A DNA stretch of 14,855 bases from JACPSX01 sp035288405 [NCBI: bacterium] (GTDB taxonomy: Bacteria > JACPSX01): assembly GCA_035288405.1 (NCBI GenBank), contig DATEAK010000172.1:1-14855 (forward strand), written 5' to 3'. The position numbers and the translations under genes were made by a program. The stretch's first letter is position 1. Each line of letters begins with the position of its first letter. The notes under the pieces were generated by a model. It ran no database searches. It was not told the origin of the DNA and was given only the letters and a program-made list of their open reading frames with translations. This document shows, piece after piece, positions 3,225 to 14,789 of this stretch.

Positions 3225-3326
3225 ATCTTTATGGGTTTCGGATTGTTCCCCATCTCTCGCAGCGGTCCGGGCGAAAACCACGTTATGAAAACAAGTTATC
3301 AGGCCGATGAGGCGTATGTACGTTTC

Positions 3327-3343
3327 TGCCACGGGAGGTGGTA
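3327..3343 (+). promoter_or_regulatory. Shine-Dalgarno displayed in a hairpin loop before the REC-STAS gene
   Basis: CCAC (3329-3332) pairs with GTGG (3338-3341), extendable by one G-U and one T-A pair, leaving the loop GGGAG (3333-3337). The loop plus the next G makes the ribosome-binding site GGGAGG, 4 bases before ATG 3343. It decides the chosen start over the in-frame ATGs at 3307 and 3316, which have no such site. A GGA exposed in a short hairpin loop is also the general form of a CsrA/RsmA target, but the flanks are not an exact consensus. Confidence 0.45.
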
Positions 3344-4143
3344 TGGGCACGGAAGAAAAAAGGACGGGTACGCCCAGTTGGGGACCGACGACTCTCCTGA
3401 TTTTGGAAACCGATGGAGAGATCGGTGCTCTTGTAGAAGATCGTCTAAGTCCTTTCAAGTTCTCGATTCTCCAAGCCCGTAGCCCGGATGAGGTCCGCGG
3501 CGTGGCCTCCGGAACGTTTCCCGACATAGCGATCATTGGACAACCGGCCTCCTCCGCAGGTGTAATTCTGTGGGGTGAGAAGCTTCTCGCCCAAGCTGCC
3601 GGCCGGGAAACGAGTCTGCTTTTGGCTTGTCAGGAGATGGATCCCGATCTTCGCAAGAAGTGCTTTGCCACGGGGTTCTACGAATTGCTCGTCAAGCCTT
3701 TGAACATTTCCGAGGTGGTCGAACTTCTTTTATTCCATCGAGAAATGCTGTTCTGGCAAAAAACCTTGCGAACCCACGGGGTCCAGGTGCGGATAAAGCG
3801 CCAGGAGGAAGGATGGCTGGTGAGCCTTCACGGGGCGCTTACGATTGAACTCTTCCCGGCCATTGGTCAGGCACTTTCGGTTTTCCTCCGGCGCGGCGAG
3901 CTTTCCTGCTGCCTTGATCTGGATGGCATCACTGAGATTGATAGCGCTGGCCTCGGTGCTCTGTTCAACTTCTGGGCTCAGGGCCGCCAGTCCAGGAGAT
4001 CCCTGAAAATCATTGCCAATTCCCGGGAGGTGCGGGAAGCGCTCGAACTGGCCAAGCTGGATCGGGTCATTTTGGGTGAAGGGGAAGAAGTGGGTTCTCT
4101 GGGCGAACTGCGGATCACCCGGGATCTTCGGGAGACGGAATAG
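3343..4143 (+). CDS. Degenerate receiver domain fused to STAS domain, regulator at head of pilus operon
   Basis: A 266-residue cytoplasmic protein with no signal peptide or membrane segment. Residues ~17-135 have a receiver-like pattern (L-L-I-L-E-T-D near 18-24, P-D-I-A-I-I-G-Q-P at 60-68, L-V-K-P-L at 116-120). The phosphoacceptor Asp position is Gly66 and the acidic pocket is reduced to Glu22/Thr23/Asp24, so aspartyl phosphorylation is unlikely; Lys118 is kept. Residues ~148-250 form a STAS domain with D-L-D-G-I-T-E-I-D-S-A-G-L-G; Ser201 aligns with the phosphorylated serine of SpoIIAA-type anti-anti-sigma factors. The stop lies 2 bases before pilM, so the two are probably cotranslated and the protein is likely tied to pilus control. 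No partner kinase or sigma factor of the SpoIIAB type is in the window. The domain calls are from motifs; the function is inferred. Confidence 0.8.
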   Translation: MGTEEKRTGTPSWGPTTLLILETDGEIGALVEDRLSPFKFSILQARSPDEVRGVASGTFPDIAIIGQPASSAGVILWGEKLLAQAAGRETSLLLACQEMDPDLRKKCFATGFYELLVKPLNISEVVELLLFHREMLFWQKTLRTHGVQVRIKRQEEGWLVSLHGALTIELFPAIGQALSVFLRRGELSCCLDLDGITEIDSAGLGALFNFWAQGRQSRRSLKIIANSREVREALELAKLDRVILGEGEEVGSLGELRITRDLRETE

Positions 4144-4145
4144 CG

Positions 4146-5210
4146 ATGGGGATCTTGGGACAAACTGCGCTGGGGATCGATATTGGAACCCATTCCATTA
4201 AAGTCGTGAAGGTTGCACGCAGAGGAAAGAAGGCGTCGCTCCTGGGGTTTGCCATTGAGGAAATTGAATTTCCCGAGGACTACAATCCCGCCCGCTCCGA
4301 GACGATAGCCTCGGGAGTTGAAGCCGGGACGGAGATGGAAGGGAGAGAGAACGCCCTGGCTGCCGCGCTGAGTCGCAGCATGTCTTCCCTGAGCCACAAA
4401 GGGTGTCACATTAGGGGGGCCTTGAGTGGTCCTGGCGTTCTCATCAAGCAGATCCCCTTTCCCGATCTTGGAGACCGGCAGATTGAGGCCGCCCTCAAGT
4501 ACGAAGCCAGGAAGTTTGTCCCCTGGAGCGTTGAGGAGATGGTCGTTGATTTCCAAGTGCTCAGCGAGGATCACCAGGCAGGGACGTGCGAGTTGCTGCT
4601 GGTGGCGGCAAGGATGCAGCAAAAGGAAACCTTGCTGCGCTTGCTTGAGACCGGGTGCAACATTTCACCTGTAGTCCTGGACGTCGAACCCCTGGCGATC
4701 GTGAACGCTTTGTTCGCCAGCAAGCGAGAGCCAGTGGAGGGACTTCAACTCATTGTCGACGTTGGCCACAGCTACACGACGCTATGCTTCTATAAGCCCG
4801 GCGCTCCGTTCTTTTCCCGCCATCTTTCCAATTCGGGGATGGATTTCAGCGCCCAGATCATGCGGCAAGCCGGAGTTGACTACTTGCGGGCCGAGGAAAT
4901 GAAAAAGGGCAAGACCGATGTCGCGGTGAGCCTTGATGTGTATCGCCCGGTCTTCAATGATCTCCTGCAGGAAATCCGGCGCTCACTGATCTATTACGGA
5001 AACCAGACCGCGGTGAGCGCTGACAAGACCAAAGTCCACGTGTGCGGGGGAGGGGCTCGCTTGGTCCCGATGGTCGACTATTTTCGCGAGGGTCTGGATC
5101 TCTCTGTTGAAGTTTTGGATCCTCTTTCCGGGCTGCAAAGCTCGGCTAGCGACGAGACGGATGGAATTGGACCTCAAATGGCCATGGCCGTGGGGCTTGC
5201 CTGGCGATGA
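4146..5210 (+). CDS. pilM: Type IV pilus assembly actin-like protein PilM
   Basis: A 354-residue cytoplasmic protein of the FtsA/actin-like fold, the usual PilM size. PilM binds nucleotide and the cytoplasmic tail of PilN, linking the inner-membrane complex to the motor. Visible motifs are phosphate-1 G-I-D-I-G-T-H-S-I-K (10-19), the PilM-typical I-P-F-P-D...A-L-K-Y-E-A-R-K-F-V-P segment (103-125), phosphate-2 I-V-D-V-G-H-S-Y-T-T-L (203-213), and the adenosine motif V-C-G-G-G-A-R-L (299-306), ending in the usual A-V-G-L-A. The region at 40-75 is somewhat longer than usual before the first helix. The ATG at 4146 follows a GGGAG (4130-4134); the stop overlaps the pilN start as ATGA. Confidence 0.96.
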   Translation: MGILGQTALGIDIGTHSIKVVKVARRGKKASLLGFAIEEIEFPEDYNPARSETIASGVEAGTEMEGRENALAAALSRSMSSLSHKGCHIRGALSGPGVLIKQIPFPDLGDRQIEAALKYEARKFVPWSVEEMVVDFQVLSEDHQAGTCELLLVAARMQQKETLLRLLETGCNISPVVLDVEPLAIVNALFASKREPVEGLQLIVDVGHSYTTLCFYKPGAPFFSRHLSNSGMDFSAQIMRQAGVDYLRAEEMKKGKTDVAVSLDVYRPVFNDLLQEIRRSLIYYGNQTAVSADKTKVHVCGGGARLVPMVDYFREGLDLSVEVLDPLSGLQSSASDETDGIGPQMAMAVGLAWR

Positions 5211-5764
5211 GGAACGAATCCTTCGTCTTCCAAATTAACTTCCAGCGCCGGGGAAAGCGTCGGCGGAAGCTGCTGGGGCGCAAAGATAAGAGGCTCCTGG
5301 CGGTCGGAATTGGATTGCACGTGCTTCTCGTGGGAGCAGGTTTCACCTTGTTGACCGGTCCGCTACGGCATGAAGGGAGGATTGAAAACCTTCGCCTGGC
5401 ACGTCTGGAAAAATCACTTCAGGATGCGCAAGGAGAACTCAGGCGTTACGAGGGCAAGATCACCAAGATCGAAGAGTTCCGGCGAACCAAGGTTCGCTGG
5501 AGTGAAATTCTCAGGAACTTAGCGAATTTGAGCCCCGGGGGAATTTTGCTCACGACTTTGGAAGACAAAGGAAAGGGACAATTGATTCTGAAGGGCGTGG
5601 CATCGACTTCGAGACGGGATGGTGGACCCGAGCAGGTCGCGGAGTTTGTCGCCCGGCTGGGAGCGCAGGGCTCGGGATTCTCGGGGGCCCGGCTCGTTTC
5701 CACTCAAAACCTAAAGACCGGTGATGTGGAGGTTGTTCAGTTCGAGGTGGAATGTGCGCTTTAA
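5207..5764 (+). CDS. pilN: Type IV pilus inner-membrane protein PilN
   Basis: A 185-residue bitopic membrane protein. Residues 1-29 are a very basic cytoplasmic tail, 30-49 a single transmembrane helix, ~58-92 a charged coiled coil, and ~100-185 the periplasmic ferredoxin-like core. PilN pairs with PilO in the periplasm and with PilM through its N-terminal peptide. The usual I-N-L-L-P peptide is represented only by Q-I-N-F-Q-R (9-14), a partial match, although the asparagine that is central to PilM binding is kept (Asn11). The start is fixed by the ATGA overlap with pilM, and the end overlaps the next gene by 11 bases. Position between pilM and pilO plus topology make the call; the primary sequence of this family is poorly conserved. 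Confidence 0.9.
   Translation: MRNESFVFQINFQRRGKRRRKLLGRKDKRLLAVGIGLHVLLVGAGFTLLTGPLRHEGRIENLRLARLEKSLQDAQGELRRYEGKITKIEEFRRTKVRWSEILRNLANLSPGGILLTTLEDKGKGQLILKGVASTSRRDGGPEQVAEFVARLGAQGSGFSGARLVSTQNLKTGDVEVVQFEVECAL
5744..5756 (+). promoter_or_regulatory. Ribosome-binding site and GTG start chosen for pilO
   Basis: GAGG (5744-5747) lies 6 bases before GTG 5754, giving a protein that begins M-R-F-N-P-K-E-L. The in-frame GTG 5721 and ATG 5724 lie deeper inside pilN and lack a clear site. The resulting 11-base overlap with pilN matches the overlaps seen at trpF/trpB and kinase/regulator. Confidence 0.6.
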
Positions 5765-6692
5765 CCCGAAAGAGCTGTTGAGCAGAAAACGGAGAATTCC
5801 AGTAACTCCATTTCTGACGGCAGGGATCGTAGCTTCTCTGGTCGCCTTGTCTCTATTTTTCTGGGGGAGTTACCGTCTCGATCGTCGACAAGCTCGTGCG
5901 CAGTCTCAGAAATTGCGAGAGGTCTCCCAGAAGGTCGTGGAAGTGCAGCAGTCTGCCCGTCAGAAGCAGGCAGACTTGCAGAAGATCCTCAATGAGGGAA
6001 CGCTGCCCATCGGGAACGGCGATCTGACACGGGAGCGGGAAATTCCCCATTTTCTTCGGGCAATTATCTCCTTGTCATCTGATCTCGGCGTGAAGGTCGT
6101 GGGATTCAAAACGAACTCTGCCCCGAGAAAAACTGGAGGCCCTGCCCTGAGCAAGGCCGACGGGTTGGTGGTGGAAAATAAGGACTCCCCGGTGCGGAGC
6201 TTTGATCTGCGCTTCCGGGGGCGATTTGGGGACCTCATGAACCTGGTGAGTCTATTGGAAAGGGCGAGTAAGCCGATGACGATCGAGAACCTCACGATCA
6301 GTTTAGAGGGAGTGGATGGCGTAGAGGGAGGCCAGGTTGCCATGCAATTTACTTTAAATGTATTGGAAGTAAGTGAGGGAGAAGTTTCAGGATCTCGCCG
6401 GGACTCGGCATCAACGGCCAGGGTTAACCTTCCCGCCTCGATCATCGCTGTCAGAGATCCATTCCGTTTCGGCGCGAGCCCTTCCGCATCGCGGGAAAAC
6501 CGTGAAGACGGAGTTTTCCGGCTTTCCGCAATTCTGAAGACCCCTAAAGGACCTATAGCGATCATAGGCAGGGAGGTTGTGGGGGTTGGAGAACGCGTCG
6601 GGAATCTGGTGGTGGTGGGAATCAGCGGGAGCCAAGTGCAGCTTCGTGGTGGAGGCAAGAGGGTGACTCTCGACTGGAAAGCAGCGGAGTGA
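5754..6692 (+). CDS. pilO: PilO with a C-terminal PilP/GspC-like domain (PilO-PilP fusion)
   Basis: A 312-residue protein, well above the ~200 usual for PilO. Residues 1-18 are cytoplasmic and basic, ~19-40 a transmembrane helix, ~41-80 a coiled coil and ~95-206 a PilO periplasmic core. A serine-rich linker (~207-232) leads to a compact beta-rich domain (~233-308) with R-D-P-F, L-S-A-I-L-K-T-P-K-G-P-I-A-I-I-G and a closing V-Q-L-R-G-G-G-K-R-V-T-L. That pattern is the homology-region domain of PilP and GspC, which docks to the secretin. No separate pilP lipoprotein gene lies between this gene and pilQ, where one is normally found. The reading frame is continuous across the junction, so this looks like a true fusion. 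It would tie the PilN/PilO dimer directly to PilQ. The PilP assignment is from pattern and position only. Confidence 0.85.
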   Translation: MRFNPKELLSRKRRIPVTPFLTAGIVASLVALSLFFWGSYRLDRRQARAQSQKLREVSQKVVEVQQSARQKQADLQKILNEGTLPIGNGDLTREREIPHFLRAIISLSSDLGVKVVGFKTNSAPRKTGGPALSKADGLVVENKDSPVRSFDLRFRGRFGDLMNLVSLLERASKPMTIENLTISLEGVDGVEGGQVAMQFTLNVLEVSEGEVSGSRRDSASTARVNLPASIIAVRDPFRFGASPSASRENREDGVFRLSAILKTPKGPIAIIGREVVGVGERVGNLVVVGISGSQVQLRGGGKRVTLDWKAAE

Positions 6693-6708: not shown

Positions 6709-8874
6709 ATGAGAACTAGGAGAGTCGTGGGAATCGCCGGAATCCTCGGAATGATCCTGTTCGCAGCTGCTTCCGGCTGTACCGGAGTAGGGAGAAGGAT
6801 TTCCGAGCAGAACCTCGCTCCTCTCAGTGAGCGTCATTTCCTCTTGAGTGTGGGAGCTCTCAGCTTTCCCCGGGTGACTCGGATCATTTTACGGGGAAAC
6901 CAGACCTTTGAGACGGTAAATGAGCAGACTGGCCCGGAAAGGAATTCGATCTCGCTGAATTTAGTCGGGGTCCGATCCCTCGTTACGTCCCCCCGGATAC
7001 TCATCGACCAGGGATCGGTTCGGTCGATTACCGTAAGCCAGGAGGAAGAAAACGTCCGTGTCTTGCTGGAGTTGAAGCAGTCCAGACCCTACGAGTTGTT
7101 CCGAAGTGGATCGCTGTTCTGGGTCGATGTGGAGGAGCCCGAACCGGCTTCCGGGGAAGCCGCCGCGGGGGATGTTCCCGGCGCCCCACAGCCGGAGCAA
7201 TCCTCGGGAGAAAAGACGAAGGGAAAACCGGAGGAGAAGATTCCACCGGTGAAGGAACCCGATCTTTTCTCGGAGATGGCTCTCCTTAACCGTACCGGTC
7301 GGCTTGATCAGCCGATCTCGCTCAAGGCCCGTGATACGGAAATGAAAGACCTCCTCCGGTCCGTAAGTAAACTGATCGGAATCGGACTTGTGGTAGACGA
7401 GGGGGTTAAAGATCGGGTGACCCTGGAAGTGGACAAGGTTCCCATCCGGGATTTGCTCACGATGTTGGTTAGAGATTATGCCTTGAGCATACAGCAACGT
7501 GGTGAAATGATATCCATCCGCAAGCTTAAGTTTGACAGTCGTGTGGTGTTCCTTCGCCATGCGAGTGCCGAACGGCTGAACCAGACCATCAAGGAATTGA
7601 AAGTAGCGGGAGACACTTCAATCTCTGCGGATCCTCGCACGAATGCTCTCGTCTTGCAAGGGGACCCGGAGGAGCTGAACCGGCTCTTGGGATTGATCCG
7701 CGCCCTGGATGCGGAAGGAACCTCCGCCTCGAGCAAGCTGAAGACAAAGATTGTGTACCTGAAATACGCCAGGGTCGGCGAGTTCCAGCGCAAGATTCTC
7801 GATCAGACGGTGACGGAGAAAGGTTTCGACGAGACCTTGAAATCCCTTCTTACGGCCGTGAGCAAAGGGGGGACGGACAGTTCTGGGAAGGGAGAGTCGG
7901 ATGGAGGCGACATCCTGTCCAGCAGGATCGCCTTTGACAAAAGGACGAATGCCGTCATTATCCGGGATCTTCCGGAGGTGGTCGATCGGATCGTCCCTCT
8001 CATTGAGGAGATGGATAAACCGCTGCCGCAAATCTCCATTGAAGCACGGATCGTGCAAACGGATGTGACATTTGCCCGGGAGCTGGGAATCCAGTGGGGC
8101 GGGAAGTACACATCAGCGGGGAATAATGGAAACACGGTGATCCAAGGGGGTCTGGTGCCGCTTGCGAATACTGCGGGAGGAATTGTCGGAACGACTCCAG
8201 GGGGCGGGAACATGGTGGTTGATCTTCCTGCTGCCGCCGGGCGGGGGGCAGGTGGAGCCGCAGGAGTGTCTCTGGGGAACCTGGCGCGTGGACTGGTTCT
8301 GGACCTGCAGCTCTCGGCGCTGGAGGCGGAAGGCAAGGCGCGGGTGATCTCGCGTCCCAGTATCGTGACACTCGCCAACCAGGAAGCACTCATTGAGAGC
8401 GGCACGGAATTCAATGTGCGGGTGAGAACCGAGGGCGCCCAGGGGACCATCTCGTCGGATCTCAAGGTAGTTGATGCCACACTGCGCCTGCGGGTGCGGC
8501 CCTACATTACCCCGGAGGGAAAGATCTTTATGGATATTCAGGCGGAGCAGCGCGAGCCCGACTTTAGCCGGGTTGTGGATGGGATTCCCGCCATCCAGAA
8601 GAACAGCGCCTTTACCCAACTGATGGTCGATGACGGGGCGACCGCGGTAATTGGCGGTCTTTTCCGACAAAAAAGCACCGATGGTTCCAATCAGGTTCCC
8701 GGGATTTCCAAGATTCCTATTTTGGGCTGGTTGTTTCAGAACCAGAACCGCACAGAGGCCCTCACGGAACTTATGATTTTCATCACTCCGAAAGTTCTGG
8801 AAGGCGAGGATGTCCGGAAAGTTCGGAAGGGAACGGATCGCGGCTCCGGAGTCAAGGGGAGCGCAGCTCCATAG
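6709..8874 (+). CDS. pilQ: Type IV pilus secretin PilQ with lipoprotein signal
   Basis: A 721-residue outer-membrane secretin through which the pilus exits. Order: basic n-region, hydrophobic stretch (6-20) and lipobox-like A-A-S-G-C with Cys24; an AMIN-like domain (~45-142, peptidoglycan binding in PilQ); a Pro/Glu/Lys-rich linker (~143-182); a STN/N0 domain (~203-271); two secretin N-repeats (~277-336 and ~346-436), the second with a Gly/Ser-rich insert (~387-400); and the secretin channel (~441-697) with a Gly-rich gate insert (~465-525), V-I-S-R-P-S-I-V-T, and the late V-P-G-I-S-K-I-P-I-L-G-W-L-F and L-M-I-F-I-T-P-K motifs. No Asp follows Cys24, so outer-membrane sorting is expected. A GGGAG (6694-6698) precedes ATG 6709. 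The AMIN domain favours PilQ over MshL or GspD. Confidence 0.95.
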   Translation: MRTRRVVGIAGILGMILFAAASGCTGVGRRISEQNLAPLSERHFLLSVGALSFPRVTRIILRGNQTFETVNEQTGPERNSISLNLVGVRSLVTSPRILIDQGSVRSITVSQEEENVRVLLELKQSRPYELFRSGSLFWVDVEEPEPASGEAAAGDVPGAPQPEQSSGEKTKGKPEEKIPPVKEPDLFSEMALLNRTGRLDQPISLKARDTEMKDLLRSVSKLIGIGLVVDEGVKDRVTLEVDKVPIRDLLTMLVRDYALSIQQRGEMISIRKLKFDSRVVFLRHASAERLNQTIKELKVAGDTSISADPRTNALVLQGDPEELNRLLGLIRALDAEGTSASSKLKTKIVYLKYARVGEFQRKILDQTVTEKGFDETLKSLLTAVSKGGTDSSGKGESDGGDILSSRIAFDKRTNAVIIRDLPEVVDRIVPLIEEMDKPLPQISIEARIVQTDVTFARELGIQWGGKYTSAGNNGNTVIQGGLVPLANTAGGIVGTTPGGGNMVVDLPAAAGRGAGGAAGVSLGNLARGLVLDLQLSALEAEGKARVISRPSIVTLANQEALIESGTEFNVRVRTEGAQGTISSDLKVVDATLRLRVRPYITPEGKIFMDIQAEQREPDFSRVVDGIPAIQKNSAFTQLMVDDGATAVIGGLFRQKSTDGSNQVPGISKIPILGWLFQNQNRTEALTELMIFITPKVLEGEDVRKVRKGTDRGSGVKGSAAP

Positions 8875-8890
8875 AAGACTTGCAATTCCA

Positions 8891-8908
8891 GAGGTGACAG
8901 CGGAAATG
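8891..8908 (+). promoter_or_regulatory. Ribosome-binding site and start codon chosen for pilB
   Basis: GAGGTGA (8891-8897) is 8 bases before ATG 8906. The longest open frame reaches back to 8810 inside pilQ, but its first 32 residues are arginine-rich, unlike the family. The chosen start puts the MshEN motif at residue 10, as expected. Confidence 0.7.
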
Positions 8909-10624
8909 GGCAGTGTCCGGATCGGCTATGAGCGACTCGGAGATATCTTCCTCAGGCAAGGGAAACTCACCCAGGACCAGCTTGAACAGGCCCTCTCCCG
9001 GCAGCGGGAATCAGGGGAACGTCTGGGATCGGTCCTGGTGAAGATGGGGTTTGTCTCTGCTTACGAACTTCTCAACGTTCTGGGCAATCAACTGCGAATT
9101 CCCCTGGCGAACGAGGATACCTATAAGACTTTGGACCGTGGGGTGCTTCACTTGGTCCCCGAAGAATTCGCCCGGCAGCATGCATTGATCCCTTTATGGA
9201 AAGAGGAATCCGTTTTGCTCGTGGCGATGATCGATCCGTTCGACATCATGGTCACGGATCGTCTCAAATTCCTCACCGGTTGCCAGATTGCTCCTTTCAT
9301 CGGCGTGGCTGAGGAAATCGAGGTTGCGCTTGGAGAATATTACCGTGGTGGAGACACTTTGGAGGAAGTGGTCCGAGACATTTCTGCCACGGAGCGGTCC
9401 TCTCTTGAGGGGGAAGGGGAGGGCTCCGATGCGGAGCTGATCATTCAATCCGAGGGAAGCCCTGCCAGCAAGTTTGTCTCTCAGATGATCGTGGAAGCCA
9501 TCGAACGGCGCGCCAGCGATATTCACGTGGAACCTACCAAAGACGGAATCGACGTACGCTACCGGATTGACGGAGTTCTTCATCACGTGGTTTCACCTCC
9601 GTCCCACTTCCGGAGCGCGATTTTGTCACGTATCAAGGTCCTCGCCAACATGGACATCGCTGAAAAGAGGCTTCCCCAGGACGGCCGCTTCTCGATCAAG
9701 CTTTCGCGGAAAATCATCGATATTCGGGTCTCCTCGTTGCCTACGGTTTTCGGAGAAAAGATCGTCCTGCGCCTCCTAGAGAAGGAGGCGTTTGCCCGGG
9801 ATCTCTCCTCCCTCGGAATGGATCCGCGTCTACTGGAGCTTTATAAGGAAGAAGTAAACCTCCCGCACGGATTGATTTTGTTCACGGGACCTACGGGGAG
9901 CGGGAAAACGACCACCCTGTATTCAACCCTCGATTTTGTGAAAAGCCCGGAAAAGAACCTGGTCACGGTAGAGGACCCCGTCGAATACCAGATCCCCGGC
10001 ATTTTCCAGGTGCAGGTCAACTACAAAATCGGCTTCACGTTTGCCGCCGCCATGCGCTCCATCCTTCGCCAGGACCCTGACATCATCATGGCCGGTGAGA
10101 TCCGCGACTTGGATACCGCGGAGATGGTGATCCGTGCAGCGCTGACAGGACACCTGGTGCTCTCGACACTACACACGAACGATGCCGTCGGTTCCATTGT
10201 GAGGCTCATGAACATGGGGATCCCCGGCTTTCTTGTAGCCGATGTGGTGTCCCTGGCCGTTGCTCAGCGGTTGCTCCGCAAGATCTGCACCGAATGCAAG
10301 GCCTCCTATGTTCCTTCGGTCTCTGAGTTGAAGTGGATCGGTCAGTCGGAAAATGCCCGCGAAAGGATCCTGTTTTTTCGGGGGAAGGGCTGCGAACATT
10401 GCAATCACACGGGCTACTTCGGCCGGGAGGGAGTCTTCGAGTATATGGTGATTGGGGACGAACTACGACAGATGATCGTCGGCAACAAGCCTGCCAATCT
10501 CATCAAGGAGAAAGCCGCAAAACTTGGAATGGTGCCGCTTATGGAAAGCGGCATCAAGAAGGTCTTGGAAGGGGTAACGACCATTGAAGAGGTTTACAAG
10601 TACATTCACCGTGCGAACCGTTGA
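8906..10624 (+). CDS. pilB: Type IV pilus extension ATPase PilB with N-terminal c-di-GMP-binding MshEN domain
   Basis: A 572-residue hexameric cytoplasmic motor that powers pilus extension. The N-terminus carries two exact 24-residue MshEN motifs (10-33 and 39-62, each R-L-G...G...L...Q) spaced by 5 residues, the layout known to bind c-di-GMP in MshE. A second N-terminal region (~70-150) is followed by the linker and N2 domain (~187-300). The ATPase core has Walker A G-P-T-G-S-G-K-T (328-335), the Asp box V-E-D-P-V-E-Y (355-361), Walker B D-I-I-M-A-G-E (392-398), the His box (416-427), and four zinc-type cysteines (461, 464, 496, 499). The catalytic glutamate is present. It starts 31 bases after the pilQ stop. 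It is closer to PilB/MshE than to PilT because of the zinc motif and N-terminal domains. Confidence 0.96.
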   Translation: MGSVRIGYERLGDIFLRQGKLTQDQLEQALSRQRESGERLGSVLVKMGFVSAYELLNVLGNQLRIPLANEDTYKTLDRGVLHLVPEEFARQHALIPLWKEESVLLVAMIDPFDIMVTDRLKFLTGCQIAPFIGVAEEIEVALGEYYRGGDTLEEVVRDISATERSSLEGEGEGSDAELIIQSEGSPASKFVSQMIVEAIERRASDIHVEPTKDGIDVRYRIDGVLHHVVSPPSHFRSAILSRIKVLANMDIAEKRLPQDGRFSIKLSRKIIDIRVSSLPTVFGEKIVLRLLEKEAFARDLSSLGMDPRLLELYKEEVNLPHGLILFTGPTGSGKTTTLYSTLDFVKSPEKNLVTVEDPVEYQIPGIFQVQVNYKIGFTFAAAMRSILRQDPDIIMAGEIRDLDTAEMVIRAALTGHLVLSTLHTNDAVGSIVRLMNMGIPGFLVADVVSLAVAQRLLRKICTECKASYVPSVSELKWIGQSENARERILFFRGKGCEHCNHTGYFGREGVFEYMVIGDELRQMIVGNKPANLIKEKAAKLGMVPLMESGIKKVLEGVTTIEEVYKYIHRANR

Positions 10625-10641: not shown

Positions 10642-10726
10642 GCGATCAGCGGTCAGCCCTCAGCCAGAAAGAGAGGATGTGGAATTTCTCCTCCGTTCTC
10701 CGGCTGATTGCTGGTTGCTGATCGCT
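10641..10726. repeat. Long imperfect inverted repeat made of TCAGC-type heptamers, between pilB and pilC
   Basis: The left arm (10641-10665) pairs with the right arm (10702-10726) at 20 of 25 positions. Each arm is a run of 7-base units of the form GCnnTCA (one unit on the right arm is GCAACCA); the left side has one more unit (10635-10641) than the right, after which pairing resumes with GAAAGC (10631-10636) against GCTTTC (10724-10729). The inner segment (10666-10701) is also partly self-complementary. It looks like an interspersed REP-like element of the GATCAGC heptamer kind, inserted in the only sizeable gap of the pil cluster. It may form a strong mRNA hairpin affecting the PilB:PilC ratio. 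No transposase is present. Confidence 0.7.
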
Positions 10727-10740
10727 TTCGGGAGAATGTG

Positions 10741-11973
10741 ATGCCGACCTTCCATTATAGAGCCATGGCGTCCGATGGAAAAACTTTGAACAACTGGGTC
10801 TACGGAGTCAGCGCGGATGCCTGTGTGGAAGATCTCCACAAACAGGGTCTCACCATTTTGTTTCTCCGGGAGGAGAAATCCTCGAGAGCGGTCGGAAACA
10901 GGAAAGAACGAGGCCCATCCTGGAAGACCCTGGGTAAGAGGGTTAAGGACCAGGATCTGATCAGCTTCACCGAGCAATTTGGCGCCATGATTGAAGCGGG
11001 GGTACCCATCACCGTATGTCTTGATAATTTAACCCGGGAAACTCACAACAAAGCCCTTCAAGAGATCATCCGGGAAACACAAAAAAAAGTCCAGGGAGGA
11101 GAATCTCTGTGGGCTGCCTTTGGGGCCCATCCCGAGGTGTTCGGACAGCTTTTCGTCCAAATGGTGCGTGCCGGCGAAGCTAGCGGCCAGCTCGGCGCGA
11201 TTCTCCAGCAGCTCTCCGTCTATCTCGAGGCAACCCACGCATTGAAGCAGAAACTCTACACGGTGCTGGCCTATCCCGTGTTTCTTCTGGGGCTATCCGT
11301 GACTGCCATGTTTTTTCTAGTGGTCAAGATCCTTCCCATCTTCAGCGGCATTTATCAGAAATTCGGGGCCAAGCTTCCGCCGTTGACCCTGATGTTGCTT
11401 CATCTAAGCGACACGGTGCGGGCCCACCTGGGGGGATTTTTCCTGGGCGCCGGAGTGATCGGCGCGGTCGTCCTCTATTGTGCGCGGAGTGAACGCGGCA
11501 GGGATGTGATTGATCGGGTCCGCCTCGATCTTCCGATCGTAGGTGATCTGATGCGGAAGACGATTTACTCCCGGTTTGCCAGGGCCATGGGCGTTCTCCT
11601 GCGCAGCGGTGTGCCGATACTGGAAGCATTGAAAATCGTCAGCCGGGTGTCCGAGAACCGACTCATTGAAAGGGAACTGATCGAATGCACCCGGAAGATT
11701 TCGGAAGGCAGCACGGTATCCGAGGCGTTGAAAGCGAGCAGGCAATTTCCCGACATGCTTGTGAACATGATCGCCACGGGAGAAGAGGTGGGGAGGCTCG
11801 ATGAGCTGATGGTCAAAGTGGCCACCTACTACGAGCGTCGTACGGAAGCAGTCATTAAGACCTTTTCATCCCTGGTGGAGCCCGCGTTGATTGTTTTCAT
11901 CGGAGGAATCGTCGGAGTGATCCTTTTTGCCATGTTCATACCCATTTTTCAAATGGGCAAGACCTTCCGCTGA
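10741..11973 (+). CDS. pilC: Type IV pilus inner-membrane platform protein PilC
   Basis: A 410-residue polytopic membrane protein of the PilC/GspF family; the platform on which PilB acts to add pilins. The N-terminus M-P-T-F-H-Y-R-A is typical. Two homologous GspF cytoplasmic domains (~72-172 and ~275-372) each contain the F-x-x-x-(L/M) and G-V-P-I motifs and the matching G-E-A-S-G-Q-L and G-E-E-V-G-R-L signatures (145-151, 347-353). Hydrophobic segments at ~173-200, ~230-248 and ~380-404 fit the usual three membrane helices. ATG 10741 has GGGAG (10730-10734) 6 bases ahead, just outside the repeat; the adjacent GTG 10738 is an alternative. It is separated from pilB by 116 bases filled by hairpins, and from the kinase gene by 7 bases. 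Confidence 0.95.
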   Translation: MPTFHYRAMASDGKTLNNWVYGVSADACVEDLHKQGLTILFLREEKSSRAVGNRKERGPSWKTLGKRVKDQDLISFTEQFGAMIEAGVPITVCLDNLTRETHNKALQEIIRETQKKVQGGESLWAAFGAHPEVFGQLFVQMVRAGEASGQLGAILQQLSVYLEATHALKQKLYTVLAYPVFLLGLSVTAMFFLVVKILPIFSGIYQKFGAKLPPLTLMLLHLSDTVRAHLGGFFLGAGVIGAVVLYCARSERGRDVIDRVRLDLPIVGDLMRKTIYSRFARAMGVLLRSGVPILEALKIVSRVSENRLIERELIECTRKISEGSTVSEALKASRQFPDMLVNMIATGEEVGRLDELMVKVATYYERRTEAVIKTFSSLVEPALIVFIGGIVGVILFAMFIPIFQMGKTFR

Positions 11974-11980
11974 GGTTGCC

Positions 11981-13432
11981 ATGAAGGTACGATTTCTAAT
12001 CGCAGTTCAAGTGTTCACAGCCCTTGTCGTCCTCGTGGTGGGGCTTCTGGCCCTGGAGGAGGGACGCCGGGGACTTCTTGGATCACCGGGAGGACCCAGC
12101 GTGAGCCAGGTCTACCAGGTTTTGCAGGCCATGCGGATTTACATCCTGGCCGGAGCCGGCCTGGCGGGTCTAGCTGGAGTGGTTCTGGCCTTGGGCGTCG
12201 CTCGTCCTCTTCTGGGGATTCGACAGGAGGTTCAATCGATTTCCCGAGGAAACCTGAGGCTGCGCAGCGACACCCATGTGGATTACGAAGTCGTCCCATT
12301 GAAAGGCGCCGTGGAAAACATGATCGGTGCTCTCAGTGACTACATACTGAAAAGCATGACCGGAGGCGCTTTTTGTCTGAACGCGACCGGAGAAATTACC
12401 TACTTCAGCCCCACGGCGGAAATTGTCTTCGGCCGGGATGCCTGGGAGATGGTCGGAAAAAGCTATACCCAGGTACTTCCACCGACCCCGAGGAACCAGG
12501 GTCTGGTGTCCACGATAGGCCAATGTTTAGAGAAGCTCCAGGGGGTTACCGGGAATCCGGTCCTCATGGAGAACGCGGCAAAGGAACAGCTTCCGGTCCG
12601 ACTCACGACGGCCGTACTGGAAGGAGAAAAAGAAGTGCTCCTCGGCGTGGTGGTGAACCTGACTGATCCCACGCAGGTCAAGGAATTACAGGAGCGTCTT
12701 TTACGTCGGGATCGCCTGGCCTCCCTGGGATTTCTTGCGGCCGGGACCGCTCACGAGATTCGAAACCCCCTGGGATCTCTGAAGGGACTCACCCAACTCC
12801 TGCAGGAAAACATGGAGGCCGGTGATCCTCGCAGGTCCTACATCGATGTGATTGTGCGTGAGGTCGATCGCCTGAATGTGTCCGTTGAGAAACTAATCCG
12901 GTTTGCCGAGCCTGACGATGGCGCTCGCGTTCTGGAGAGTATCACCAAACTGATGTCTCATGAAGTGCAGAAGGTCCGCAGTGTAGCAGCCTTGCGGGGG
13001 ATTTCCCTGGTTGAACACTACCAGACCGACGTTCCGGACATCGAGGTCTCCGGTCTGTCTCTCGCGGAAGCCTTTGCTCACCTGCTAGCGGATGCCGTGG
13101 AAAGATCTCCCCGGGATTCGATGGTCTCGATCCAAGTAATCTTCGAGTCCGACCAGGTTGTCCAGAGGAACACCCCATCGGGGCGGATTGTAATGGAGAT
13201 CGGCAATACCGCTGTCCTCCTTCCAGGGGCAGAGCGAAAAAGGCTTTTCGATCCTTTCTACGGCTCCCGGAAAAGTGACTTTGGCCTGGAGTTGGCGATT
13301 GCTCATCAAATCATTTCCCATCACAGGGGAACCCTGGATTCGGTGACCAATGCGGATGGGAATATGGCCATCCGGATCTGCTTGCCGGTCCACGCGATTC
13401 CGGCAAAGACAGGAGCGCTTTATGGAGCCTGA
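11981..13432 (+). CDS. PilS-like sensor histidine kinase with degenerate ATP-binding domain
   Basis: A 483-residue membrane sensor. ATG 11981 follows TGAGG (11971-11975), which includes the pilC stop. Helices at ~5-25 and ~53-74 flank a short periplasmic loop (~26-52); then HAMP (~75-127), PAS (~129-232) and a HisKA dimerisation domain with H-E-I-R-N-P and the phosphorylatable His258. The C-terminal domain is clearly CA-related (F-D-P-F at 423-426) but the N-box asparagine is Asp371, the G1 motif D-x-G-x-G reads N-T-A-V-L (409-413), and the G2 motif reads D-F-G-L-E-L-A (433-439). ATP binding is therefore doubtful. The gene overlaps the response regulator by 11 bases, so the two are partners. 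It may act as a phosphatase or signal scaffold. Canonical PilS has six helices; this has two, so I give no symbol. Confidence 0.88.
   Translation: MKVRFLIAVQVFTALVVLVVGLLALEEGRRGLLGSPGGPSVSQVYQVLQAMRIYILAGAGLAGLAGVVLALGVARPLLGIRQEVQSISRGNLRLRSDTHVDYEVVPLKGAVENMIGALSDYILKSMTGGAFCLNATGEITYFSPTAEIVFGRDAWEMVGKSYTQVLPPTPRNQGLVSTIGQCLEKLQGVTGNPVLMENAAKEQLPVRLTTAVLEGEKEVLLGVVVNLTDPTQVKELQERLLRRDRLASLGFLAAGTAHEIRNPLGSLKGLTQLLQENMEAGDPRRSYIDVIVREVDRLNVSVEKLIRFAEPDDGARVLESITKLMSHEVQKVRSVAALRGISLVEHYQTDVPDIEVSGLSLAEAFAHLLADAVERSPRDSMVSIQVIFESDQVVQRNTPSGRIVMEIGNTAVLLPGAERKRLFDPFYGSRKSDFGLELAIAHQIISHHRGTLDSVTNADGNMAIRICLPVHAIPAKTGALYGA
13411..13424 (+). promoter_or_regulatory. Ribosome-binding site and start chosen for the response regulator
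   Basis: AGGAG (13411-13415) lies 6 bases before ATG 13422 and gives a protein beginning M-E-P-E-T-I-L-V-V-D-D-D, where receiver domains normally start. The open frame extends 24 codons further upstream inside the kinase gene, which is not expected to be translated. Confidence 0.75.
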
Positions 13433-14789
13433 GACGATCCTCGTCGTGGACGATGACGAGCACATGGGGTTTACCTTCAAGGAAGTCATGACCAGCGAGG
13501 GATACCGCGTCGTAATGGCCCGGGATGGTCTGGAAGCCCTGGAGCGCGTGAAAGCCGATCACCTGGACCTCGTCCTCATGGACGTCCGGATGCCCAAAAT
13601 GGATGGCATCGAAGCACTCAAGCAGATGGTGAACATCGTACCTGATTTGCCGGTCATCATGGTCACGGCCTTCGGTTCGAAGGATATCGACGTAGAAGCC
13701 CTCAAACTAGGTGCCTATGACTACTTTACGAAACCCGTGGACATCCACGAGATCCGCATCGTCGTTCGCCGGGTTCTGGAGAAAGCCAAACTTCAGCAGG
13801 AGGTGGACCGCCTCCGGCGCCTGGTGGCGGGGAATCAACCCTTCGGCGGGATCGTCGGCACCAGCGCTCCCATGATGGAGGTCTTCAATCTCGTGCGGTC
13901 GATCGCCGACAGCAACGTGGAAGTCCTGATCTGTGGCGAAAGTGGAACAGGGAAAGAGCTTGTAGCCAAAGCGATTCACCAGAACAGCTCTCGCCTCGAA
14001 AAACCATTTGTCAAGATTAACTGCGCGGCGATTCCGGAAACCCTTCTGGAGAGCGAACTTTTCGGTTACGAGAAGGGCGCCTTTACCGGTGCCACTCACG
14101 GGAAGCCGGGTAAGTTCGAAATGGCTCACGAGGGCACCTTGTTGCTGGACGAGATCGGGGATATGAGCTTGTCGACGCAGGCCAAAGTGTTGCGGGTGAT
14201 CCAGGAGAAGGAGCTGGAACGCCTGGGGAGCACGAGCACGACGTCAGTGGACGTGCGCATCCTGGCTTCCACGAACAAAGATCTGCCGGAAGCGATTTCG
14301 TCCGGTCAGTTTCGCGAAGACCTGTTTTACCGCCTCAATGTCATTACGATGCATCTTCCTCCTCTGCGAGATCGGCGTGAGGATATTCTTCTTCTGATGG
14401 AGCATTTCATCGAAAAGTTCAATCAAATCCACAACCGCCGCGTGTCCGGGATCTCGGATAGCGTGGCGGAGCGCTTTCTGTCCTACCGATGGCCCGGAAA
14501 TGTGCGGGAGTTGGAGAACGTCGTACAGCGCGCACTGATCCTTACGAAGGACACGGTAATCGGGATCAGGGATTTGCCGGAACAGATTGCCGGGGATCCT
14601 CTCGGAGGCGGCAACAGTGAGAATCCACTTCTGCTGAGCGCGGTGGACGGGATTGCCGACCAGGCCGAAAAGAAAATGATTCAAGAGGCCCTGGAGAAGA
14701 TGGGAGGGCACCGCCAGAAAACGGCGGAACTATTAGGAATCAGCCGCAAGACCCTTCATAACAAAATGCGGAAGCATGGGCTGCTGTGA
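13422..14789 (+). CDS. NtrC-family sigma-54-dependent response regulator (PilR-like)
   Basis: A 455-residue transcriptional activator. The receiver domain (~5-120) is intact: acidic pocket Asp10-12, phosphoacceptor Asp54 in L-M-D-V-R-M-P, Thr82 and Lys104. The AAA+ domain (~140-370) has Walker A G-E-S-G-T-G-K-E (172-179), the sigma-54 contact loop G-A-F-T-G-A (219-224), Walker B L-L-L-D-E-I-G (240-246) and the arginine-finger region R-E-D-L-F-Y-R-L-N-V (298-307). The C-terminus is a Fis-type helix-turn-helix (~430-455). It should therefore activate sigma-54 promoters when phosphorylated. Position next to pil genes suggests a PilR role such as pilin gene control, but NtrC-class proteins cannot be assigned targets by sequence alone, so no symbol is given. 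Confidence 0.95.
   Translation: MEPETILVVDDDEHMGFTFKEVMTSEGYRVVMARDGLEALERVKADHLDLVLMDVRMPKMDGIEALKQMVNIVPDLPVIMVTAFGSKDIDVEALKLGAYDYFTKPVDIHEIRIVVRRVLEKAKLQQEVDRLRRLVAGNQPFGGIVGTSAPMMEVFNLVRSIADSNVEVLICGESGTGKELVAKAIHQNSSRLEKPFVKINCAAIPETLLESELFGYEKGAFTGATHGKPGKFEMAHEGTLLLDEIGDMSLSTQAKVLRVIQEKELERLGSTSTTSVDVRILASTNKDLPEAISSGQFREDLFYRLNVITMHLPPLRDRREDILLLMEHFIEKFNQIHNRRVSGISDSVAERFLSYRWPGNVRELENVVQRALILTKDTVIGIRDLPEQIAGDPLGGGNSENPLLLSAVDGIADQAEKKMIQEALEKMGGHRQKTAELLGISRKTLHNKMRKHGLL

Follow-up and report, generated by a model that had tools for sequence, protein, structure and literature searches.

The question raised by this locus is what role is left to a membrane histidine kinase-like protein whose phosphoacceptor site is kept while the motifs of its ATP site are altered, and whose gene runs into that of an NtrC-type response regulator beside a set of pil genes. 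The whole stretch of DNA analysed, 14,855 nucleotides in length, is referred to here as the window.

The kinase gene and its neighbours

All genes of the window lie on the + strand, in the order trpC (partial), trpF, trpB, trpA, a STAS-domain gene, pilM, pilN, a gene in the pilO position, pilQ, pilB, pilC, the kinase gene and the gene for the NtrC-type regulator. The features from the STAS-domain gene onward were assigned as follows.

3307-4143, + strand: STAS-domain gene between trpA and pilM (STAS domain C-terminal)
4146-5210, + strand: pilM (ORF, Pfam, NCBIfam)
5207-5764, + strand: pilN (ORF, Pfam, NCBIfam)
5721-6692, + strand: gene in the pilO position (Pfam, no family above cutoff)
6709-8874, + strand: pilQ, secretin (ORF, Pfam, NCBIfam)
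8810-10624, + strand: pilB, ATPase (ORF, Pfam, NCBIfam)
10708-11973, + strand: pilC, T2SSF inner-membrane protein, immediately 5' of the kinase gene (ORF, Pfam, NCBIfam)
11981-13432, + strand: membrane histidine kinase-like protein of 483 aa, with a TM segment, HAMP, PAS, HisKA (DHp) and degenerate HATPase (CA) domain in that order (ORF, Pfam)
13422-14789, + strand: response regulator of the NtrC family, 455 aa counted from its likely ATG (Pfam; alignment to E. coli NtrC and the sister locus L153)

The N-terminal half of the STAS-domain protein (3307-4143) looked receiver-like by eye, with the phospho-Asp lost and the K-P kept, and matched no Pfam family even at E values up to 1. The end of pilQ and the start of the listed pilB ORF share 65 bases (8810-8874), and a later codon may be the true start of pilB.

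The kinase frame opens at an ATG at 11981, 7 bases after the pilC stop codon (11971-11973), which is overlapped by a GAGG, and runs through 483 residues without an internal stop to a TGA at 13430-13432. The likely ATG of the regulator, at 13422, lies inside the 3' end of the kinase gene the two genes sharing 11 bases, and has AGGAG ahead of it, so the two proteins are probably translated together. The regulator consists of a receiver domain with Asp54, a sigma-54 AAA+ domain with GAFTGA and a Fis-type HTH. The sequence-only reading had described it as an intact partner, and this was borne out by Asp54, the receiver Lys, the Walker motifs and GAFTGA, all of which are present. The best NCBIfam score of the regulator was to AtoC, with 507 bits against an equivalog cutoff of 714, and the scores of the kinase were likewise below the cutoffs for AtoS (215.8 of 646 bits), ZraS (123 of 479) and NtrB (89.8 of 240).

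Within the kinase, the domains and motifs were placed at the following positions.

11981-12334, + strand: N-terminal membrane part and HAMP domain, residues 1-118 (Pfam HAMP weak, 20.6 bits against a 25-bit cutoff)
12338-12688, + strand: PAS domain, residues 120-236 (Pfam PAS, 30.7 bits)
12707-12934, + strand: DHp domain, residues 243-318, HEIRNP with phospho-acceptor His258, Glu259 and Asn262 (Pfam HisKA, 49.6 bits)
12962-13390, + strand: CA domain, residues 328-470, with a predicted Bergerat-type fold and lost ATP-site motifs (Pfam HATPase_c, 31.4 bits, cutoff 26.4)
13079-13096, + strand: N-box remnant H-L-L-A-D-A, residues 367-372 (alignment)
13205-13219, + strand: G1 remnant N-T-A-V-L, residues 409-413 (alignment)
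13247-13258, + strand: F-box F-D-P-F, residues 423-426, kept (alignment)
13262-13294, + strand: TTK and G2 region G-S-R-K-S-D-F-G-L-E-L, residues 428-438 (alignment)

The phosphoacceptor motif required of HisKA proteins is present as HEIRNP at residues 258-263, with the His258 codon at 12752-12754. The residue that follows the H-box Glu and marks phosphatase activity, Thr or Asn, is found here as Asn262. Alignment with the E. coli MG1655 sequences placed Asp371 (codon 13091-13093) against EnvZ N347 (numbering of the MG1655 gene), NtrB N248 and AtoS N510. Both Asn residues of the N-box are replaced, the first by His367 and the second by Asp371; the N-box Asn serves as the Mg ligand of the ATP site. 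The G2 box reads D-F-G-L-E-L, with Asp433 (13277-13279) and Glu437 (13289-13291) at the first and third glycines of the G-T-G-L-G-L of E. coli EnvZ, NtrB and AtoS, and with Gly435 kept. The conserved T-T-K ahead of G2 (428-430) is G-S-R. The N-box Asn, the D-x-G-x-G of G1 and the G-x-G-L-G-L of G2, which together characterise a functional HisKA kinase, are thus all absent, and the protein combines a predicted histidine kinase fold with lost catalytic motifs, as a pseudokinase is defined. The residues singled out by the sequence-only reading (His258, Asp371, 409-413, Asp433, Glu437 and F-D-P-F) are all present and correctly numbered from the ATG at 11981; its list was incomplete, having missed His367, where the first N-box Asn is lost, and the G-S-R in place of T-T-K.

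The DHp-CA part was modelled with AlphaFold2 from an alignment of only 8 rows. The model contained the expected helices and sheet with a mean pLDDT of 77.7; its weakest parts were the two ends and residues 181-200, near the lid and G2. Its top fold matches lay within 1 Z unit of each other, namely the ThkA CA domain (Z 21.6, rmsd 2.4 over 150), DivL (Z 21.5, rmsd 5.0 over 206) and ZraS (Z 21.3, rmsd 4.0 over 215); RetS was also among the matches (Z 18.9, rmsd 4.3 over 210), and ZraS was also the PDB sequence that best matched the family profile. The CA fold is therefore predicted to persist, a prediction with no bearing on nucleotide binding.

ATP-site motifs among the relatives

A direct scan of genome contigs with the kinase gave 18 pattern matches, none of them a relative. 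TrpB was used as an entry to genomes, with the best 80 of 593 loci taken, and the two top summed trpCFBA scores belonged to Nitrospiria MAGs. The kinase searches covered 1536 sampled genomes (overlapping counts, phyla sampled, often with the top 4-16 candidates per genome scored), and no relative more than 37% identical over most of the protein was found among these candidates. In the phylum to which a Syntrophobacterales MAG belongs, four genomes, all of one class of 23, contained the nearest full-length relatives (33-37% identical), and the closest PilC (39-40%) and PilB (48-50%) matches seen came from the same class. Residues 1-75 of the kinase were 44-47% identical to three of these relatives (L148-L150) and 33% identical to the fourth (L151). 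For the DHp-CA part only, tblastn gave identities of up to 38% (L099, L132, L133), and 66% over a short fragment of the partly masked L111. A search of IMG/VR with the kinase returned seven weak matches; tblastn against plasmids matched 351 records, none at 60% identity or more, and the best-ranked place was 28% identical.

The motifs were tabulated over 59 distinct DHp-CA sequences, identical ones having been removed and L111 being partly masked. A row was counted as beside pilC if tblastn put a hit to that gene in its locus, which spanned about 4.5 kb at most. This applied to 32 rows (L081, L093-L100, L111-L124, L126, L127, L129, L132, L133, L148-L151) and left 27 others; 28 of the 32 come from the phylum of a Nitrospiria MAG. 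All 59 were retrieved with either the kinase itself or the profile of its family as query, so that the counts below describe a non-random sample in which related rows are not independent.

Both N-box positions, 367 and 371, were Asn in 58/58 readable relatives (31/31 beside pilC and 27/27 others, with one row masked), and the three G2 positions, 433, 435 and 437, were Gly in 59/59 (32/32 and 27/27). The loss of both N-box Asn residues and of two of the three G2 glycines is private to the window kinase. The G1 box gave a different result. None of the 32 pilC-adjacent kinases kept the Asp of this box, 21 having Asn there and 11 Ser, whereas the 27 kinases not beside pilC had Asp in 25 cases and Asn in two. 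The second G1 glycine was found in 0/32 pilC-adjacent kinases, and the first, absent from the window kinase, was likewise absent from 22 of them. Asn409 of the window kinase fits this pilC-adjacent trait, in which the G1 Asp gives way to Asn or Ser. The same column holds Asn in ThkA, whose CA domain was, by the title of the structure, solved with ADP-Mg. Since Asn at this position occurs both in ThkA and in 21/32 pilC-adjacent kinases, it is probably an inherited and tolerated state and not in itself a loss.

The sequence-only reading had called the ATP site dismantled at all three boxes. This holds for the N-box and G2 and fails for the change of the G1 Asp to Asn, which is a trait of pil-locus kinases and of ThkA; the rule that a G1 Asn means a dead kinase was dropped on the same grounds. 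That reading had also allowed that relatives with canonical boxes would make the protein an ordinary kinase or a local artefact. The relatives proved canonical in the N-box and G2 and not in G1, which indicates that the window kinase is a derived member of the family, not an artefact. A local (double) frameshift was rejected, as the altered stretches align to the nearest relatives without gaps in the window; together with the absence of internal stops, this upholds the earlier description of a clean frame up to the regulator overlap.

Departures at G1 went further in some relatives. The twelve sequences L113-L124 had no recognisable G1 box, and their F-box position 426 was not Phe in 12/12, with Phe423 kept. 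Asn409 was also found in L135 and L140, which were not assigned as beside pilC and on whose contigs (10.2 and 3.9 kb, respectively) tblastn detected no pil gene, and L125 and L143 lay near pilB- or pilQ-like hits, yet had a canonical G1. Judged by these motifs, erosion of ATP binding is possibly widespread in pilus-locus sensors. The phosphatase position of the H-box was Asn in 54 of the 59 relatives, Ser in three (L148-L150, H-E-I-R-S-P) and Thr in two.

Divergence of the DHp and CA domains

Mean identities were calculated against 15 of the 32 family members and eight kinases not beside pilC, three of these from E. coli. The DHp domain of the window kinase was 53% identical on average to the 15 members, within the members' own means of 49-60%, whereas its CA domain was 26.5% identical, below their 32-50%. 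Against the eight other kinases, the values were 39% for DHp (members 38-43) and 22% for CA (members 29-35). Among the columns shared by 70% or more of the other sequences, with L111 omitted, the window kinase kept 24/26 in DHp and 11/25 in CA (Fisher p = 2e-4, a descriptive value given the sampling). Its CA fraction of 0.44 was the lowest in the leave-one-out table, from which L111 and L098 were omitted, on a scale that is not absolute, since EnvZ itself reached 0.64.

Trees built from 33 of the 59 relatives, which also addressed whether the pilC-adjacent kinases form a single clade, had support values of 33-51% near the window kinase; its fixed-topology terminal branch was 0.72 for DHp and 2.20 for CA. 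The relative L112 came close to it, with a CA distance of 3.71 versus 3.97 and a CA/DHp ratio of 1.59 versus 1.87, and L095-L097 had ratios of 1.54-1.58. All four of these relatives keep the N-box and G2, and the near-equal CA rate of L112 means that a fast CA domain alone is no proof of a dead one. Overall, the comparison makes a strong, not final, case that the regulator-contacting part has been kept and the ATP-holding part has drifted, with the low tree support near the window kinase and the similar CA rate of L112 as the reservations. Decay of the whole gene is disfavoured, because it should affect DHp and CA alike, whereas DHp is normal and CA diverged. The codon-position GC of the CA segment (0.62/0.41/0.66) was similar to that of the neighbouring genes.

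The earlier claim of an intact phosphoacceptor domain is thus confirmed by HEIRNP and by the 24/26 conserved DHp columns. The claim that the protein is a pseudokinase gains from the contrast between DHp and CA and loses the argument drawn from G1.

Candidate functions and known systems

We consider, with about even confidence, that the window protein is a pseudokinase derived from an NtrB/AtoS-like bifunctional sensor of a type IV pilus locus, and that it most likely acts as a transmitter phosphatase on the adjacent regulator. The CA domain would probably no longer bind ATP-Mg well enough for autophosphorylation, while DHp would still dimerise and dock the NtrC-type regulator. A signal received through the membrane, HAMP and PAS parts would then lead to removal of phosphate from Asp54 of the regulator, the phosphate having been supplied by another kinase or a small phosphodonor, and the pilus genes, as the putative target, would be kept off or their expression trimmed.

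Transmitter phosphatase activity is favoured because Asn262, the HisKA phosphatase residue, is kept, and its retention beside a lost ATP site fits this function. According to excerpts of a study of CrdS, the residue equivalent to Asn262 (N375) is needed for phosphatase and dispensable for kinase activity, and the equivalent of Glu259 (E372) is needed for kinase and dispensable for phosphatase activity (PMC3510030). Against a purely phosphatase role stand the retained Glu259 and, in the CA domain, the remaining G2 glycine, the F-box and the HATPase_c score above cutoff. The phosphatase of HisKA kinases is often stimulated by nucleotide, and an empty CA domain might lower it.

Two known cases come closest to the proposed phosphatase. 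In EnvZ, the same N-box change of Asn to Asp at the aligned position (D371 of the window kinase), N347D, reportedly yields a kinase-minus/phosphatase-plus protein, going by the title of the 1996 work of Dutta and Inouye. EnvZ-N347D is a single engineered change in an otherwise intact kinase. In the window kinase the losses extend to the first N-box Asn, to the G1 glycines and to two of those in G2, and its highest scores are to NtrB/AtoS-like families. RetS of Pseudomonas aeruginosa, as portrayed in excerpts, has a degenerate HATPase domain without G-boxes and a retained HisKA domain, does not autophosphorylate, and acts by transmitter phosphatase activity and other routes (PMC5992135). RetS differs in being a hybrid with receiver domains that targets another kinase, GacS. 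The window protein lacks a receiver, and its gene overlaps that of its own NtrC-type regulator.

A rather doubtful alternative is that the window protein works as a partner subunit, with His258 phosphorylated in trans by an intact related kinase and the phosphate passed to the regulator, or with the partner tuned allosterically. The retention of both His258 and Glu259 suits a protein that accepts phosphate from another kinase, and the sister loci supply a possible model. In L153, a distance of 1.5 kb separates the orthologue (HK1) from another kinase (HK2), which has D-K-G-I-G as its G1 box, G-T-G-L-G-L as its G2 box and a canonical N-box, and the N-terminal parts of HK1 and HK2 are 57% identical (67/117), indicating that their membrane parts are paralogous. 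The order of hits in L154 and L155 is the same as in L153, and these second kinases make a partner kinase plausible, by analogy, for the window kinase. Pairing of this kind has precedents in excerpts on the ChrS pseudokinase, which acts through HrrS (PMC9491836), and on RocA, which acts on CovS (PMC7028121). However, no second kinase was found in the 14.9-kb window, the locus of the nearest relative, L152, gave no hit to a second kinase or regulator in 19 kb, and HK1 of the sister loci is not degenerate in the N-box or G2. The phosphatase position in the four sister orthologues is Ser in three and Thr in one, so that, on these residues, they may lean away from phosphatase activity.

Some further features of the sister loci were noted. 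In L153 (8213-14267), and also in L154 and L155, the two membrane kinases stand on either side of a gene with a receiver domain, next to the pil genes and convergent to pilC; the NtrC regulator is on the other strand in all three, and in L153 pilin-like genes follow it, by eye. The receiver protein near HK1 of L153 is HD-GYP-like, as read by eye from its end sequence, and the regulator of L153 is the closest match there to the window regulator, at 53%.

Among the systems with two kinases, ChrS resembles the window protein, as a candidate, in lacking a working CA domain and steering its system through a paralogous kinase, and native ChrS-HrrS heterodimers were detected by BACTH, according to the same excerpts (PMC9491836). 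The pseudokinase form of ChrS is a CA truncation produced by a frameshift during laboratory evolution of Corynebacterium glutamicum, whereas the CA domain of the window kinase is full length and its loss natural. In the NmpRSTU system of Myxococcus xanthus, compared here by description, an NtrC-like regulator that modulates type IV pilus-dependent motility likewise has two sensor kinases upstream of it; the system differs in that, in the excerpted account, both Nmp kinases had autokinase activity and NmpS is a hybrid (PMC6211767).

It is unlikely that the protein is an unusual active kinase which binds nucleotide through its altered motifs and autophosphorylates. The CA fold is kept in the model, with the CA domain of ThkA as top match, that domain, which itself has Asn in G1, was solved with ADP-Mg, and HATPase_c remains above the Pfam cutoff. 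However, the predicted fold is silent on nucleotide binding, and T-T-K is replaced, as are the N-box Asn and two of the G2 glycines, positions at which the readable relatives show no variation.

Quite unlikely is an allosteric switch in the manner of DivL, in which DHp would read the phosphorylated regulator and inform another protein without catalysis. The conserved DHp domain and the place of DivL, a pseudokinase of this kind in excerpts of PMC4211667, among the tied top structural matches speak for such a switch, whereas DivL has lost its His (Tyr550) and the window kinase keeps His258, Glu259 and Asn262, which suggests retained phospho-chemistry. More generally, RocA of group A Streptococcus and DivL of Caulobacter are, by the excerpted descriptions, naturally occurring pseudokinases of the histidine kinase type, each of which modulates a partner protein (PMC7028121, PMC4211667). 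Both differ from the window protein with its intact H-box His, Glu and Asn, as Tyr replaces the His in DivL and RocA works through CovS without its His.

A pseudogene or sequencing artefact is very unlikely: the N-box and G2 losses do occur in one sequence only, with no close relative for dN/dS, yet the frame is full length and ungapped at the altered motifs, the conservation of DHp equals that seen in intact relatives while CA has diverged, the codon-position GC of CA is like that of the neighbouring genes, and four residues invariant in the readable relatives are changed at four separate codons.

To return to the phosphatase reading, its setting resembles that of PilS/PilR and of AtoS/AtoC-type NtrB/NtrC pairs in that a kinase stands beside pil genes and a sigma-54 regulator; the NCBIfam scores far under the equivalog cutoffs and the altered ATP site set the window pair apart. 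PilS of Pseudomonas has six membrane helices. Histidine-kinase pseudokinases are already known in RetS, DivL, RocA and evolved ChrS. Among the titles found in the open-licence literature, none linked a histidine pseudokinase to a pilus locus, one pseudokinase paper proved to concern a tyrosine kinase, and no paper on NtrB N248D/D287N came up. The excerpts consulted mentioned neither the G1 pattern of kinases next to pilC nor a pilus-locus pseudokinase whose gene overlaps that of an NtrC regulator partner.

For the family as a whole, it may tentatively be proposed that pilus-locus sensors shed the ATP site stepwise, as a bifunctional sensor splits into kinase and phosphatase specialists. The G1 Asp and second glycine would have been lost first, in two phylum-level groups, and the window kinase would then have lost the N-box and G2, giving a natural dedicated phosphatase or a trans-phosphorylated subunit that carries the change of EnvZ-N347D. 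The sister orthologues would represent the other course, keeping the N-box and G2 while their phosphatase residue is Ser or Thr, with a second kinase nearby in 3/4 loci (the paralogous membrane part being measured in one). Automatic annotation would name the window protein an ordinary kinase, as it still passes the Pfam HATPase_c cutoff. The G1 change beside pilC is a countable pattern that can be checked in other genomes, and the combination of a drifted ATP domain with a constrained regulator-facing domain offers a test of whether a phosphatase or scaffold function alone is selectable.
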